Source of the DNA: a bacterium
GTDB taxonomy: Bacteria > Electryoneota > RPQS01
Direction: 5' to 3'
Assembly: GCA_036504735.1 (NCBI GenBank)
Contig: DASXUQ010000019.1
Coordinates: 62,001 to 126,000, forward strand
Length of the DNA stretch: 64,000 nucleotides
Shown piece by piece: positions 42,259 through 48,675 of the stretch; the stretch's first letter is position 1, and the number at the start of each line of letters is the position of its first letter. A model generated the notes under the pieces. The model was not told the DNA's origin, made no database searches, and saw only the letters and a program-made list of their open reading frames with translations. Both the position numbers and the translations under genes were made by a program.

Positions 42259-45210
42259 ATGACAATTTCCCTGCCCGCCTTTCGCACATGGAAACCGGAT
42301 CTGCACAGGCTATGTGCCTTTGCCGTTTTTGTAATCGCGCTGATTGTGTATCGAATCACCATGGCGCCCAGCGTCTCCTTCTGGGATGTGGGCGAGTTCG
42401 TGACCGTGTCCACCATTTTGGGAGTATCACATCCGCCCGGCGCGCCGCTCTTCATTCTATGGATGCACCTTCTCTCCCTGCTGCCACTCTCCACAGACAT
42501 TGCGGTGCGCTGCTCCTATCTGGCCACAGTAACGGGCGCGTTTGTGGTAACGTTCGCCTATCTGATTATCGTCCGCCTGCTTCACCACCTCCACGGGCCG
42601 GATGAGTCCATACCGCATCGCATTGCCCTCTGTGCCGGCGGCGTCATTGGGGCGTTGTCTCTGGCATGGTCTTACTCTATGTGGTTCAACTCGGTGGAAG
42701 CGATTCTCTTTACGCCGAGCCTGTTTTGCACGACGCTCTGTGTCTGGCTGGCATTGGTGTGGTATGAGAAGGCCGATGAACCGGACAGCGCTCGTTATCT
42801 GCTGTTGATTGCCCTGATTGTCGGTCTGGCCATTGGCGTACATTTACTGTCCGTGCTGTCCATTCCCGCCATGGTGCTGATTATCTACTTTCGACTGCGC
42901 CGGCCAACGGCGGGGTCTTTCATCGGCTGGCTGATCCTCGCCATGCTGATCACCCTTGTGGTCTACCCGGGTGTGGTCAAGTACCTGCCGGCCCTTGCCA
43001 GCCGCATCAGCCTGGTCATGCCGCTGGTAGTCCTCGCCGCACTGGCCTACGGTTTCAACTGGGCCCGGCGAAAGGGACACGGATTGACCGGCGTCGTCAT
43101 GGCCGCCGCCCTTCTGATTCTGGTCGGCTGCTCCACGTACGCCTATGTTTTTATCCGCGCCGAAAGAAATCCGGCAGTGAACGAAAACAATCCCAGCAAT
43201 CCCGCCCGTTTCTTTTCCTATATGAACCGCGAGCAGTACGGCAGCCGCCCCATCTTTCCGCGCATCTGGAACAACGACCCGGCCTATCACAGCGCCGGCG
43301 ATTTTTTCTGGCGCTATCAGGTCAACAAGATGTACTTTCGGTATCTCTGGTGGCAGTTCATTGGCCGGGAAGGCGCGCCCGAACGCGAGTATCAGGATGC
43401 GGGGGTGTCTCCCCAATACTCGGTGCTGGGACTATTGGCAGACCAACCCAGCGGCGTTCTGCGGCTGCTGGCCCTGCTGACCTGCGCGCCCTTCATGCTG
43501 GGACTGCTGGGCTTTGTCCACCAGTACATGAAGGACAAACCCGGCTGGGTGATTGTCTTCACCCTATTCTTTATGACCGGGCTGGCGATTGTGCTCTATT
43601 TGAATCAGGAGGACCCCCAGCCCCGCGAACGGGACTACTCGTATGTCGGCTCCTTCTTTGCGTTTGCCCTCTGGATCGGCATCGGCTCCATGGCCGCGAT
43701 TGAATGGTTCGTCCGCAAGACGCAGGCGGCGAACCGTCCCGTGCTTTCCGCCGCGCTCTTCTCCGTTCTGCTGCTGATGCTCAGCCCGGTCATGCTGCTG
43801 GGGAAAAATTATCACATGGATTCCCGCCGCGGCAATTACGTAGCCGAAGATTACACCTACAACATGCTGAACTCCTGTGCGCCCAACGCGATTCTGATCA
43901 CCAATGGCGATAATGACACGTTTCCGGTATGGTACATGCAGGAGGTCAAACAGGTGCGGCGCGACGTGCGGATTGTCAATTTGAGTCTGGTCAACACAGG
44001 CTGGTACATCAAGCAGCTTCGGGACAATCAGCCGCGCGTACCCATCTCCTTCAGCGACAACTACATTGACCGTTATTTCGACGCCGAGGACGTCCAGGCC
44101 CTGTTATCCCGCTACTGGCCGCCCGACAAGCAGAAAGTGGAACTGACAACTCCGCAGGGAAAGATGCAATGGGTGATGCCCGCCACCATGTATGTTCCCA
44201 TCCGGGATCAACCCTCCGAAGAGCGAACGTCCAATTTCCTGCGCGTACAGGACATCATGATGCTGGACATCCTGCGGAGCAATTTCGATCCTGCCAAGAC
44301 ACCCGTGCCCAAACCGTTCTACTTTGCGGTAACGGTGCCCTCCTCCAGCATGATCGGTCTGAAAGACTTTCTCAGTATGGATGGACTGGTGTTCCGGCTG
44401 GATCCCAAAGGGGATTCCCCTCTCGATCCTGATATGCTGAAGCGGAACGTGCTGGAGGTCTATGACCGGCACATGCGAGGCATCAATGACCCGCGCGTAC
44501 ACTACGACGATAATGTGGACCGCCTGCTGTCCAACTACCGCTCTGCCTTTCTCCAACTGGCATATTACTACATGACTCAGCCTGACAGCATGGTTGTACC
44601 TGCCGTTGATAGAGGCTCGAACCTTGAAGGGCGCTTAACTGGCTTCGACAGGCTCGGCAATTCGCAAAAGGCGCTCACATTGCTCGAAGAGATGGAGCGC
44701 CGGATCCCCGAAGATGTCCGCCCCAGCTACAGTCCTGAATTGGAAGTCCAAATCGGGAAAATGTATGAGGAACTGGGCCGAACCGGAGAATTGCGCCTGC
44801 GGCTGGACCGCCTTGTCCGTCAGAAAGACCTGCCGCCTGAGACCCAGGCGTTAGTGGCCGCGACCTATTACACCGTGCTGAACGATACCGCGCGGGGCAC
44901 AGCTATGCTGGACAGTATTGTCAGCCGAAATCCTACGCGGGATGTGCTGTATGCTGTCGGTGTGCAGTTGGCTTCTGCTCGCGCCTATGAGCCCGCCACG
45001 CGCTATCTGGAGCGTGCCTTGGAGTACAATGCGGATGACGGCGAAGTTGTGGGCGCTCTGCTGCAGGTCTATGCGGCGTCCGGAGCGCTGCCGAAGGCTC
45101 GCACATTCTTGGAAAGCTGGATGTCGCGTCACCCTTCCGACAAGGGCGCGAAATCGCGTCTCGATGCCCTGTTAGCGGATAGCGCCAGCCATCCCGTTCC
45201 TGCCAAGTAG
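42259..45210 (+). CDS. DUF2723-family membrane glycosyltransferase with C-terminal TPR region
   Basis: A 983-aa protein. Residues 1 to about 500 hold ten or more transmembrane helices, with the DUF2723 signature near the N-terminus (TMAPSVSFWDVGEFVTVSTILGVSHPPGAPLF). The acidic SFWDVGEF loop is the presumed catalytic site, as in GT-C transferases. Residues about 500-770 are periplasmic (NAILITNGDNDTFPVWYMQEV), and residues about 790-980 are TPR-like helices. The family is GT117-like and includes human TMEM260, an O-mannosyltransferase, so protein glycosylation is plausible. ATG 42259 lacks a good RBS. It lies next to the polysaccharide locus but on the opposite strand, in its own unit. Confidence 0.8.
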   Translation: MTISLPAFRTWKPDLHRLCAFAVFVIALIVYRITMAPSVSFWDVGEFVTVSTILGVSHPPGAPLFILWMHLLSLLPLSTDIAVRCSYLATVTGAFVVTFAYLIIVRLLHHLHGPDESIPHRIALCAGGVIGALSLAWSYSMWFNSVEAILFTPSLFCTTLCVWLALVWYEKADEPDSARYLLLIALIVGLAIGVHLLSVLSIPAMVLIIYFRLRRPTAGSFIGWLILAMLITLVVYPGVVKYLPALASRISLVMPLVVLAALAYGFNWARRKGHGLTGVVMAAALLILVGCSTYAYVFIRAERNPAVNENNPSNPARFFSYMNREQYGSRPIFPRIWNNDPAYHSAGDFFWRYQVNKMYFRYLWWQFIGREGAPEREYQDAGVSPQYSVLGLLADQPSGVLRLLALLTCAPFMLGLLGFVHQYMKDKPGWVIVFTLFFMTGLAIVLYLNQEDPQPRERDYSYVGSFFAFALWIGIGSMAAIEWFVRKTQAANRPVLSAALFSVLLLMLSPVMLLGKNYHMDSRRGNYVAEDYTYNMLNSCAPNAILITNGDNDTFPVWYMQEVKQVRRDVRIVNLSLVNTGWYIKQLRDNQPRVPISFSDNYIDRYFDAEDVQALLSRYWPPDKQKVELTTPQGKMQWVMPATMYVPIRDQPSEERTSNFLRVQDIMMLDILRSNFDPAKTPVPKPFYFAVTVPSSSMIGLKDFLSMDGLVFRLDPKGDSPLDPDMLKRNVLEVYDRHMRGINDPRVHYDDNVDRLLSNYRSAFLQLAYYYMTQPDSMVVPAVDRGSNLEGRLTGFDRLGNSQKALTLLEEMERRIPEDVRPSYSPELEVQIGKMYEELGRTGELRLRLDRLVRQKDLPPETQALVAATYYTVLNDTARGTAMLDSIVSRNPTRDVLYAVGVQLASARAYEPATRYLERALEYNADDGEVVGALLQVYAASGALPKARTFLESWMSRHPSDKGAKSRLDALLADSASHPVPAK

Positions 45211-45308
45211 CCCATTGAAAGGGCTGATAATCAAAAGGGAGGCTTAAGACGACTTTCAGGTCATAATTCGCCTCCCCGCAGGAACTTGGGAATTCGCTTG
45301 CAAAACTG

Positions 45309-45332
45309 AAAGGGCCATTTCCCTTCTTAACT
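45309..45332 (+). terminator. Possible weak terminator after the DUF2723 gene
   Basis: The short hairpin AAGGG...CCCTT is followed by CTTAAC. A longer GGGAGGC/GCCTCCC pair with a large loop lies just upstream (about 45238-45280). Neither has a good T run. Confidence 0.3.
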
Positions 45333-45437
45333 GACACTCATAACAGGAAGTTTTATAAGATCCTAATATATAGGACTTTTTGTGTCTGTTTTGTAACATC
45401 GTGATGTTTTTAACTTTCATGATGTTATTCTAAACTC

Positions 45438-45468
45438 TTGACACTAAGATCCCGAATTCGTATATATT
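45438..45468 (+). promoter_or_regulatory. Near-consensus sigma-70 promoter
   Basis: TTGACA (45438-45443), 17 bases, TATATA (45461-45466). This is the best promoter in the window. Transcription should start around 45474 and run into the structured leader and the cytochrome operon. Confidence 0.8.
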
Positions 45469-45473
45469 CCACG

Positions 45474-45618
45474 AGCCGTCACGTGAATGGTTTTTACCCT
45501 CGAGGTAGTGCCGTGGACGAAGTTCGGTGGCTATACTGCTCATGGCGCTTGCACGCCGGAGAGGTTTTGAAGCGGGAAGACTGAAGCCTTGCCAGATCGT
45601 AAATGGCGAGGTTTTTTT
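45474..45618 (+). ncRNA. Structured leader or small RNA ending in an intrinsic terminator
   Basis: A transcript of about 145 bases bounded by the strong promoter and a strong terminator, with no ORF preceded by an RBS. Hairpin 1 has GAG/CTC, TAGT/ACTG and GCC/GGC helices (45502-45512 with 45529-45541), with bulges. Hairpin 2 is GGCG-cttgca-CGCC (45544-45557). The terminator stem is CCTTGCCA (45587-45594) with TGGCGAGG (45604-45611), then seven T (45612-45618). The cytochrome gene begins 90 bases further on, so this could be a riboswitch or attenuator controlling it, or an independent sRNA. I could not match it to 6S, SRP RNA or any riboswitch consensus I know. Confidence 0.6.
45587..45618 (+). 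terminator. Terminator at the end of the structured leader
   Basis: An 8-bp stem with one G-U pair, a 9-base loop and seven T. It lies upstream of, not after, the cytochrome operon, so it must be read through or bypassed for that operon to be expressed from the 45438 promoter. Confidence 0.85.
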
Positions 45619-45707
45619 GTGCTCCCAATTTCACCTCGCAACTCTTGTGTTTAACGTACATTAACCATAAAAAATCGAATCTGCCGCAATCTTTTTTAAG
45701 GTAGTCC

Positions 45708-46184
45708 ATGCCTCCACAGCTTTCGCGTTTGATGATTGCCTTTGGACTCCTTGTTGTGCTGTTCATTGTGGTTCGATGGGTAGCACAGCCGGACTCCTTT
45801 TACCAGTACGGGCATTACCGCGGTAAGGCCCTGTCCGAGTTGGCATCGGCTCCCGTGAAATTCATTCCCCGTGCAACCTGCGCGGAATGCCACGAGGACC
45901 AGGCCAAGCAAAATGCCGCCGGCCCGCATGTGCACATCTCGTGTCAGAGTTGCCATGGTCCGGGAAGTGATCACGTGGACAACCCCACAGCGGAGAACAT
46001 TATCCTCCCGGTTGTCGGTCAGACGTGTGTGCGTTGTCACGCTCAAAATGCGGCGCGCCCCGCCAGCTTTCCGCAAATCGATGTTAAGGACCATGCGGGA
46101 AAGAAACAGTGCACCGATTGTCATGTTACTCACAACCCGCAGGAATTCCGGGAAGAAGATAAGAAGGCTGACCATGCCGAATAA
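45708..46184 (+). CDS. Membrane-anchored tetrahaem cytochrome c
   Basis: A 158-aa protein with an N-terminal transmembrane anchor (LMIAFGLLVVLFIVVRWVA) and four CxxCH haem-binding motifs: CAECH (about residue 60), CQSCH (about 79), CVRCH (about 107) and CTDCH (about 137). The arrangement (single anchor plus small tetrahaem domain) recalls NrfH/NapC-like quinol-to-cytochrome electron carriers, but the sequence is not clearly of that family. It is the first gene of an operon with NrfC- and NrfD-like subunits and probably passes electrons between them and a periplasmic partner. Its stop lies within the start region of the next gene. Confidence 0.85.
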   Translation: MPPQLSRLMIAFGLLVVLFIVVRWVAQPDSFYQYGHYRGKALSELASAPVKFIPRATCAECHEDQAKQNAAGPHVHISCQSCHGPGSDHVDNPTAENIILPVVGQTCVRCHAQNAARPASFPQIDVKDHAGKKQCTDCHVTHNPQEFREEDKKADHAE

Positions 46185-47007
46185 TGATCATCAGGACCTC
46201 ATCCTTCCCGAAGGCTGCGATACCTGTGCCGCCAAGACCGGGAGTGGCAAAACGCGGCGTGACTTCCTGAAGCTCCTCGGCCAGGCCACCGTTGTGCTTA
46301 CCGCCGCTCGCTTCGGCGCAAGCGCCGCCGGGGCCACCGAGACGCCACCCGCCGAGGCGCACGTGGCAGAACAATGGGACCTGCATAAATGGGGCATGGC
46401 CGTCGATGTGGAGAAATGCATCGGCTGTGGCCGCTGCGTCGTCGCCTGCAAAGCGGAGAATAGCGTACCTAAGGAGCCCACCTATTTCCGCACGTGGGTG
46501 GAGCGATACCGGGAGTATGAGGACGACGTCGTGGTGGATTCTCCCAACGGCGGCTATGACGGCTTCCCCGCAGATGACGGTGGCCGCACACCGGATCGTG
46601 CGTTCTTCGTGCCCAAGCTCTGCAACCATTGCGACAAGGCGCCGTGTGTGCAAGTATGCCCGGTGGGCGCAACCTTTAAGACACCGGACGGCGCGGTGCT
46701 GGTGGATGCGTCGTATTGCATTGGCTGCCGCTACTGCATTCAAGCCTGCCCTTACGGCGCGCGCTATCTGAATCCGGTCACCCAGACCGCGGACAAGTGC
46801 ACGCTCTGTTATCACCGCATTCATAAAGGATTGAAACCTGCCTGTGTGGAGAACTGCCCGACCGGCGCCCGCATCTTCGGCGACCTGAAAGATCCGAACG
46901 ACCCGTTGCGCAAGTACCTGCATGACCACAAGGTGTTCGTCCTCAAGCAGCAGCTCAACACGTATCCCAAGGTGTTTTATTACGGCATCGACAAGGAGGT
47001 GCGCTGA
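46174..47007 (+). CDS. NrfC/PsrB-like periplasmic four-cluster Fe-S protein with Tat signal
   Basis: A 277-aa protein. A twin-arginine signal (KTRRDFLKLLGQA, about residues 27-39) directs folded export. Four [4Fe-4S] motifs follow: CIGCGRCVVAC, CNHCDKAPCVQVCP, CIGCRYCIQACP and CTLCYHR...CVENCP. It is the electron-wire subunit of complex-iron-sulfur type oxidoreductases, sitting between NrfD in the membrane and a redox partner. The much longer open frame upstream is the shadow of the cytochrome gene; ATG 46174 with AAGAAGG just before it is the start. A cysteine pair (CDTC) precedes the Tat motif, which is unusual. Confidence 0.9.
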   Translation: MPNNDHQDLILPEGCDTCAAKTGSGKTRRDFLKLLGQATVVLTAARFGASAAGATETPPAEAHVAEQWDLHKWGMAVDVEKCIGCGRCVVACKAENSVPKEPTYFRTWVERYREYEDDVVVDSPNGGYDGFPADDGGRTPDRAFFVPKLCNHCDKAPCVQVCPVGATFKTPDGAVLVDASYCIGCRYCIQACPYGARYLNPVTQTADKCTLCYHRIHKGLKPACVENCPTGARIFGDLKDPNDPLRKYLHDHKVFVLKQQLNTYPKVFYYGIDKEVR

Positions 47008-48251
47008 TGACGGAGACACTTGCCGTAATTCAACATGCCGCTGAAGGTGTGGTCGGCTACATCTATCCCAATGAGTCCGAACTCCACTGGAGCATTCTCA
47101 TTGTCCTCTACCCCTATCTGACCGGACTTGTAGCCGGTGCCTTCATCCTTGCGTCTCTCGAGCGGGTCTTCAGTGTCAGCGCGGTGCGGCCCACGTACCG
47201 CCTGGCCCTGATCACCGCGCTCTCCTTTCTGATTGCCGCGCCCTTGCCGCTGCTGGCGCATCTCTCCAAGCCGTGGCGCTTCTGGGAGGTGTTGGTCACA
47301 CCCCATGTCACCTCCGCGATGGCGATGTTCGGCTTCGTGTATATGTGGTATCTGCTGGTGGTGCTGATCCTCGAGATCTGGTTTGAGTACCGGCGGGACT
47401 TTGTGGTGTGGTCCAATGCCGGGTCGGGGGGCAAACGCAGACTCTACGGGTGGCTGACGCTGGGAGTGCGCGATGTCTCCGAGCCGGTCGTTCGCTTCGA
47501 TGAGACCGCGATTCGCGTCATCTCCGTCATCGGCATCCCCTCCGCCTTCCTGCTGCATGGCTATGTGGGGTTCATCTTTGGGTCCATCAAGGCCAACCCG
47601 TGGTGGTCCAGCGTGCTCATGCCGGTCATCTTCCTCTTCTCCGCCATCGTCTCGGGCATTGCGCTGGTGATGCTGATCTTCCTCGTCTCGAATGTTTTGC
47701 GCAAAATAACACCCGACATGGAGTGCATTGACACTCTGGGCCGCTATCTGTTCTATGCCTTCATTGTAGACTTTGCGCTGGAAGGGCTCGACGTGATTCA
47801 GCGCACGTATGCATCTGAAGAGTCCTTCGATGTACTTTATGCGCTGGTCCACGGCCGCCTATTCGAAACCCACATCATCTTCCAGATATTGCTGGGCACA
47901 CTGATACCGATTGCCTTGCTGGGCATCATTCAGGTCACGCGGGTTTCGAAGCCCATTCGTCTCGCAATCTATTGGTTCGTGGGCTTTCTCGTGCAAGTCG
48001 GTATCTTCTTCATGCGCTGGAACGTGGTGATCGGCGGCCAGCTTTTCTCCAAAAGCTTCCGCGGCTTTACAATTTACAAACTCGGGCTCATCGGACGGGA
48101 AGGCGGACTGGCCGCTCTTCTGCTGTTCCTGCTTCCCTTTGCAATCTTGATGTTTCTGATTTGGCTCCTGCCCCCTTGGCAGGAAACTCACCGGCCAACA
48201 ACAAATATTCCCTCAAGTGTAAGAGACGCTCAAGCGATTATCGAGAGCTGA
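47007..48251 (+). CDS. NrfD/PsrC-like membrane quinone-interacting subunit
   Basis: A 414-aa integral membrane protein with eight to ten helices. It begins with SELHWSILIVLYPYLTGLVAGAFILASL, the usual NrfD opening, and contains the LAHLSKPWRFWEVL loop and GGQLFSKSFRGF near the C-terminus. NrfD-type subunits exchange electrons with menaquinone/quinone. The start overlaps the Fe-S gene stop by one base and has a strong AAGGAGGTG RBS. No molybdopterin or other catalytic subunit follows, so the partner is unknown. The cytochrome, Fe-S and NrfD proteins may form a menaquinol:cytochrome-type module. Confidence 0.88.
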   Translation: MTETLAVIQHAAEGVVGYIYPNESELHWSILIVLYPYLTGLVAGAFILASLERVFSVSAVRPTYRLALITALSFLIAAPLPLLAHLSKPWRFWEVLVTPHVTSAMAMFGFVYMWYLLVVLILEIWFEYRRDFVVWSNAGSGGKRRLYGWLTLGVRDVSEPVVRFDETAIRVISVIGIPSAFLLHGYVGFIFGSIKANPWWSSVLMPVIFLFSAIVSGIALVMLIFLVSNVLRKITPDMECIDTLGRYLFYAFIVDFALEGLDVIQRTYASEESFDVLYALVHGRLFETHIIFQILLGTLIPIALLGIIQVTRVSKPIRLAIYWFVGFLVQVGIFFMRWNVVIGGQLFSKSFRGFTIYKLGLIGREGGLAALLLFLLPFAILMFLIWLLPPWQETHRPTTNIPSSVRDAQAIIES

Positions 48252-48281
48252 CTTCCCACTTGCGCGGAAAAGGAGGTGGCT

Positions 48282-48572
48282 ATGGAAGAACCTTTTTCCT
48301 GGCAGCGATTTGACAGTATTGCCAAAGTCCTCGGGTCTCTGGGCTACCTGGCGGCGGTGTTCGGTCCACTGACCGGCATTGCCATGCTGGTCCTGGGGTC
48401 AACCGCCGTCCGCCTCGCTGGTATCGTGGTGATCGGAGCCAGTGTTCTGATCGCGGCATATCACATCAGCTTCTCTCTGCTTATGAACGCCGTTCACGAC
48501 ATTACCCGGCATCTTGAACTGCACGAGCATGAGCAGGTCGAAACTCCGACTGCGGGTCACGTCGTGCACTGA
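48282..48572 (+). CDS. Small two-helix membrane protein of the NrfCD operon
   Basis: A 96-aa protein with hydrophobic segments LGYLAAVFGPLTGIAMLVLG and AGIVVIGASVLIAAYHISFSLLM, then a His/Glu-rich tail (HDITRHLELHEHEQVE). ATG 48282 follows AGGAGG (48271-48276); the GTG at 48276 would overlap the RBS and is rejected. Co-transcription with NrfD, 30 bases upstream, suggests an accessory subunit. The His-rich tail could bind haem or metal, but that is inference. Confidence 0.6.
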   Translation: MEEPFSWQRFDSIAKVLGSLGYLAAVFGPLTGIAMLVLGSTAVRLAGIVVIGASVLIAAYHISFSLLMNAVHDITRHLELHEHEQVETPTAGHVVH

Positions 48573-48638: not shown

Positions 48639-48675
48639 AGCAGGCTTCCCACCGCAGGAGAGCCTGCTCTTTTTT
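48639..48675 (+). terminator. Intrinsic terminator of the cytochrome/NrfCD operon
   Basis: AGCAGGCT (48639-48646) pairs with AGCCTGCT (48661-48668), with a 14-base loop, and CTTTTTT follows. Confidence 0.82.

Follow-up and report, generated by a model that had tools for sequence, protein, structure and literature searches.

The question raised by this locus is what precedes a redox operon in a 64,000-nucleotide stretch of bacterial DNA (the window): a leader RNA that governs the operon, an independent small RNA, or neither of the two. The initial annotation had offered a ligand- or redox-sensing leader and an independent sRNA side by side. The gene for a TMEM260-like membrane protein (42259-45210) and the cytochrome gene with which the operon begins (45708-46184) are separated by 497 bases, and the following features were recognized in this interval and in the operon behind it.

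45438 to 45468, plus strand: putative sigma-70-type promoter (sequence, consensus count and shuffle controls)
45473 to 45583, plus strand: body of the predicted short RNA, with no above-chance structure, credible ORF or known family
45584 to 45618, plus strand: intrinsic terminator with an 11-bp stem, a 9-base loop and T7 (sequence, folding and shuffles)
45619 to 45707, plus strand: gap of 89 bases from terminator to cytochrome ATG (promoter-site scan)
45708 to 46184, plus strand: tetrahaem c-type cytochrome, first operon gene (four CxxCH in the translation)
46174 to 47007, plus strand: Fe-S protein of the NrfC/DsrO type (family match, given from 46177)
47007 to 48251, plus strand: NrfD-like membrane subunit (PF03916, 6.1e-38)
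48276 to 48572, plus strand: 98-aa protein with no family match, probable last operon gene (translation)
48639 to 48668, plus strand: terminator-like hairpin and T run behind the operon (terminator scan)

The near-consensus promoter described initially (TTGACA, 17 bases, TATATA) is indeed present in the sequence. Its −35 element TTGACA is located at 45438-45443 and its −10 element TATATA at 45461-45466, with a 17-bp spacer, and together they carry 10/12 consensus bases, though the −10 element alone matches at only 4/6; an alternative −10 element, TATATT at 45463-45468, would be placed behind a 19-bp spacer and raise the count to 11/12. Shuffling of the region 45211-45707 produced sites of at least 10/12 (spacing 16-18) in 76/1000 cases and sites of at least 11/12 (spacing 15-19) in 5/1000, and within the 497-bp intergenic region itself the site at 45438 was the top promoter-like site. 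A fixed-pattern scan listed neither this promoter nor the terminator at 45584-45618, because it required a T as the last base of the −10 element and allowed a loop of 8 bases at most.

The terminator is formed by arms at 45584-45594 and 45604-45614 and by the T7 run at 45612-45618, and exhibits the stable G+C-rich hairpin followed by a stretch of T residues that defines an intrinsic terminator. The predicted stability of the hairpin, −15.3 kcal/mol, was equalled by 0/500 shuffles and by 0/200 in a repeat run. The seven T residues reported before were thus found again, but the stem has 11 bp instead of 8 bp. Likewise, the cytochrome gene follows closely as had been stated, with its four CxxCH motifs evident in the translation, at a distance of 89 rather than 90 bases. 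The gap 45619-45707 contained no promoter-like site above 8/12, and the arms of a hairpin near 45664-45702 that could mask the RBS are visible but absent from the predicted fold. This anatomy lends good support to a short transcript that is terminated before the operon begins.

The body of the RNA provided no comparable signal. For 45473-45583 a fold of −31.8 kcal/mol was predicted, and 404/500 shuffles (161/200 in a repeat run) folded equally well or better. The ‘at least two extra hairpins’ of the initial annotation can be drawn, but are therefore no evidence for a structured RNA. A GTG ORF of 33 codons extends from 45483 to 45584, with a stop codon that reaches into the terminator stem by one base; its codon score of −0.043 per codon resembles that of wrong-frame sequence (mean −0.051) as against real 33-codon pieces (mean 0.19), and an ORF as long occurred in 303/2000 shuffles. 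No Pfam match and no clear Shine-Dalgarno sequence ahead of the ORF were found, and its best match in the 38 other genomes of the phylum had an E-value of 0.06, in line with the earlier view that no credible ORF is present. An Rfam search at gathering thresholds gave nothing credible in the whole window, and with E-values up to 10 the region 45200-45720 gave only mir-561 (E 7.7) and HYMAI (E 6.9), neither of which is credible, so that the RNA matches no Rfam family; the initial annotation had likewise been unable to assign it to an RNA class.

We then considered whether the terminator could be switched. The segment 45557-45567 resembles the 3′ arm of the terminator at 10/13 bases, a likeness equalled by 89/2000 shuffles, and could pair with the 5′ arm; the resulting antiterminator duplex is weaker than the shuffle average, with 1616/2000 shuffles as good. 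Before the 3′ arm is made, the antiterminator fold is predicted to lie ∼1.1 kcal/mol above the best fold, and once it is made the terminator is predicted to be favoured by more than 8 kcal/mol. The conserved structured aptamer domain by which a riboswitch is recognized was not found by shuffles, Rfam or homologue searches. A ligand- or redox-sensing riboswitch is thus supported by none of the tests run, with no Rfam match, no structure or antiterminator above chance and no homologue to its credit, whereas the broader suggestion of a leader or an sRNA is in keeping with the promoter and terminator anatomy. It would be very improbable that a hitherto undescribed, genus-restricted attenuator responding to a ligand or to redox state, with 45557-45567 as its antiterminator strand, gates the cytochrome/NrfC/NrfD electron-transfer operon in this member of the Calditrichota.

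Relatives of the RNA were sought in 39 genomes of the phylum, comprising its own and 38 others, none of the same genus. In blastn searches of its own family and of the phylum (39 genomes) the sole strong match was the window itself, and the best match outside (L148, E 0.0012) was discarded as 26 bases within a 639-codon open frame. A covariance model, built from this one sequence only, was run on the same 39 genomes; the second match that it gave in the own genome (C9:213619, E 0.026) proved to be a different terminator hairpin, nothing convincing was found elsewhere in the phylum (best E 0.68), and 77 operon loci yielded 0 matches up to an E-value of 5. Phage and plasmid records likewise contained no match to the RNA. 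The homology search suggested by the initial annotation thus revealed no homologue in the 38 other genomes of the phylum or in the operon loci, and no terminator that is conserved in relatives.

6S RNA (RF00013) is a small stable RNA similar in size to the predicted RNA at 45473-45618, and was considered as a candidate because RF00013 gave no score in the source genome. This identity was rejected, as RF00013 did not match here and the genome's own 6S RNA was located on another contig (G000:C5:355229-355432), using the same-family 6S RNA from L139. The own 6S RNA served as a yardstick of sensitivity, with 72-85% identity in genomes of the same family and order. By blastn it matched over most of its length in 4/14 6S loci (L133 and L137 at 85%, L135 at 77% and L139 at 72% identity); among the remaining ten, eight matched only weakly or over a short length and two did not match at all. 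Measured in this way, the blastn search covered the same family and order, and did not reach the whole phylum. As 6S RNA was found in the same family and order and the RNA studied here had no relatives there, an old and strongly constrained structure is argued against. It was also observed that the own 6S RNA corresponds to L140:1500-1720, and that RF00013 missed the same-family 6S RNA in 8/11 genomes, the own genome included (E 0.001); adding same-family 6S sequences to RF00013 would probably catch the missed copies.

The operon offered a second route to relatives. Its cytochrome was present in 8/39 genomes (E up to 1e-8), and, with cytochrome starts estimated from tblastn alignments, the 400 bases ahead of it contained a terminator at 7/78 loci, its own included, counted whichever gene these terminators serve; two loci that were too short and three lacking a cytochrome match (L051, L065 and L076) were left out of this count, and the duplicate loci L032, L033 and L036-L041 were removed beforehand. 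The four nearest operon relatives (L034, L035, L042 and L043) keep the cytochrome start as MPPQ and had no terminator in this 400-base interval. A promoter-like site with TTGAC(A/T) was located 175-191 bases before the ATG in 3/4 of these relatives (L042 at −191, 10/12; L034 at −182, 9/12; L035 at −175, 9/12), as compared with 270 bases in the window. In L034 a farther site at −326 (10/12) outscores that at −182, and L043 had no promoter-like site above 7/12 upstream of the cytochrome. The own sequence and L035 have 12 bases in common around the −35 element (E 0.066), and the leaders of the relatives could not otherwise be aligned with the own leader. As far as the DNA sequence goes, promoter-like and terminator elements are thus present here in this order and at this spacing, and absent in this form from the relatives.

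The gene on the other side was no better a guide. Ten informative genes related to 42259-45210 had no counterpart of the RNA downstream. The other TMEM260-like copy of the genome (G000:C5:55181-56059, with 47% identity across the part used in the search) precedes a different gene, which is the same one as follows in most same-family genomes. Since this copy and nearly all relatives precede a different gene, the RNA is not tied to the TMEM260-like gene. As an observation apart, 42259-45210 is itself a second copy of this TMEM260-like (protein O-mannosyltransferase-like) gene.

The explanation that we place first, at about an even chance of being correct, is that the operon's own promoter lies ahead of a lineage-specific terminator in its 5′ UTR, and would give rise to a short RNA together with partial read-through. 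The promoter at 45438 would then be that of the operon, with RNA polymerase starting near 45473 and reaching the intrinsic terminator 110-145 bases on, where most transcripts would stop as an RNA of ∼145 bases and a minority would continue into the cytochrome/NrfC/NrfD operon; premature termination in the 5′ UTR would in this way act as a brake on operon expression. From this arrangement we infer transcription, the efficiency of termination, read-through and the dependence of the operon on the 45438 promoter. In its favour were counted the strong terminator, the rank of 45438 as the best intergenic site and the hairpin at 48639-48668 that would close the operon, and against it the weak sites of the relatives, their unalignable leaders, the better site at −326 in L034 and the want of any site above 7/12 in L043. 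It is favoured, weakly, because of the TTGAC(A/T) sites of the relatives and the lack of a site above 8/12 in the gap. The main rival, possible but on the whole doubtful, takes the short RNA for the product of an independent sRNA gene and has the operon transcribed from a separate non-consensus promoter in the 89-base gap; if such a promoter exists, the short RNA would be a gene in its own right. Judged by its sequence, the unit would be complete and gene-like, with a promoter, ∼145 bases and a strong terminator, and the absence of the terminator in the four nearest operon relatives indicates that the operon does not always come with the RNA. However, neither blastn nor the covariance model found such a gene in the 38 other genomes of the phylum, in contrast to the own 6S RNA, which matches four genomes of the same family or order, and the promoter that the operon would need in the gap is not seen above 8/12.

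The other readings have less to commend them. A terminator-type riboswitch or sensing attenuator, in which a ligand, a protein or a redox signal would flip the RNA between terminator and antiterminator, is suggested by the order of promoter, leader, terminator and operon and by the possible pairing of 45557-45567 with the 5′ arm, only ∼1.1 kcal/mol above the best early fold, but is unlikely, given that the sensor region 45473-45583 has no above-chance structure (404/500), the antiterminator duplex falls below the shuffle average (1616/2000) and neither an Rfam match nor a homologue was found. That the GTG ORF 45483-45584 encodes a small protein, acting as a microprotein by itself or as a leader peptide in attenuation, would accord with the overlap of its stop codon and the first terminator stem base; its wrong-frame-like codon score, the frequency of ORFs as long in shuffles (303/2000), the lack of a Pfam match and of a clear Shine-Dalgarno sequence, and a best E of 0.06 in 38 genomes make this quite improbable. 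We give very little credence to the terminator being a late one of the 42259-45210 gene, shielding the redox operon as an insulator, with the promoter-like site incidental. No T-rich terminator is found directly behind that gene, which speaks for such a role, but the structure lies 374 bases past its stop codon, the region's best promoter-like site intervenes, and the 10 informative related genes are without a downstream counterpart.

In its layout alone, the preferred reading of a terminated operon leader would fit the well-documented short RNAs that arise by premature termination in 5′ UTRs. Work on E. coli describes short RNAs that end in 5′ UTRs, some of which act as small-RNA sponges (PMC7815308), and the likeness lies in a short RNA that ends in the 5′ UTR ahead of a gene; the E. 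coli 3′ ends were mapped by experiment, whereas here the end is predicted from sequence. Similarly, a report on Listeria monocytogenes describes Rli51 as a 121-nt RNA in the 5′ UTR of mpl with read-through into the gene (PMC11394854), to which the present RNA is alike in layout and size. The Rli51 antiterminator was predicted to be more stable than the terminator, whereas here it is weaker and at chance level. With terminator-type riboswitches (Rfam cis-regulatory) the locus shares the order of promoter, leader, terminator and operon, but the present leader has no recognizable aptamer, above-chance structure or conservation.

A terminated leader of this kind is probably ordinary. The phylum is known mostly from metagenomes, and a literature search on small RNA in the Calditrichota brought up no paper. 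A regulated terminator would offer a first lead on how respiratory operons are controlled at the RNA level in this phylum; an unregulated one would be another lineage-specific terminated leader.

Just upstream of the −35 element, at 45387-45426, lies the sole tandem repeat of the window (18-base period, 2.2 copies), which overlaps the palindrome AACATCGTGATGTT, unique in the genome as an exact site; a search of the genome for further exact copies of the palindrome AACATCNNGATGTT likewise found none. For a tracrRNA or another CRISPR-linked RNA, which would call for the complement of a CRISPR repeat close by, the window thus offers no further tandem array. An operator-like inverted repeat at 45394-45427 was equalled in 16/200 shuffles and a 16-base repeat at 45405/45646 in 55/200, on which grounds both were dropped as real elements. 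The stretch 45387-45426 is possibly an operator, but its repeats do not rise above chance. Tandem arrays were also observed in another genome (G026), at L124:1046-1607 (a 53-base unit, 10.7 copies) and 2190-2496 (a 55-base unit, 5.6 copies), and the two units share a stretch that is nearly reverse-complementary.
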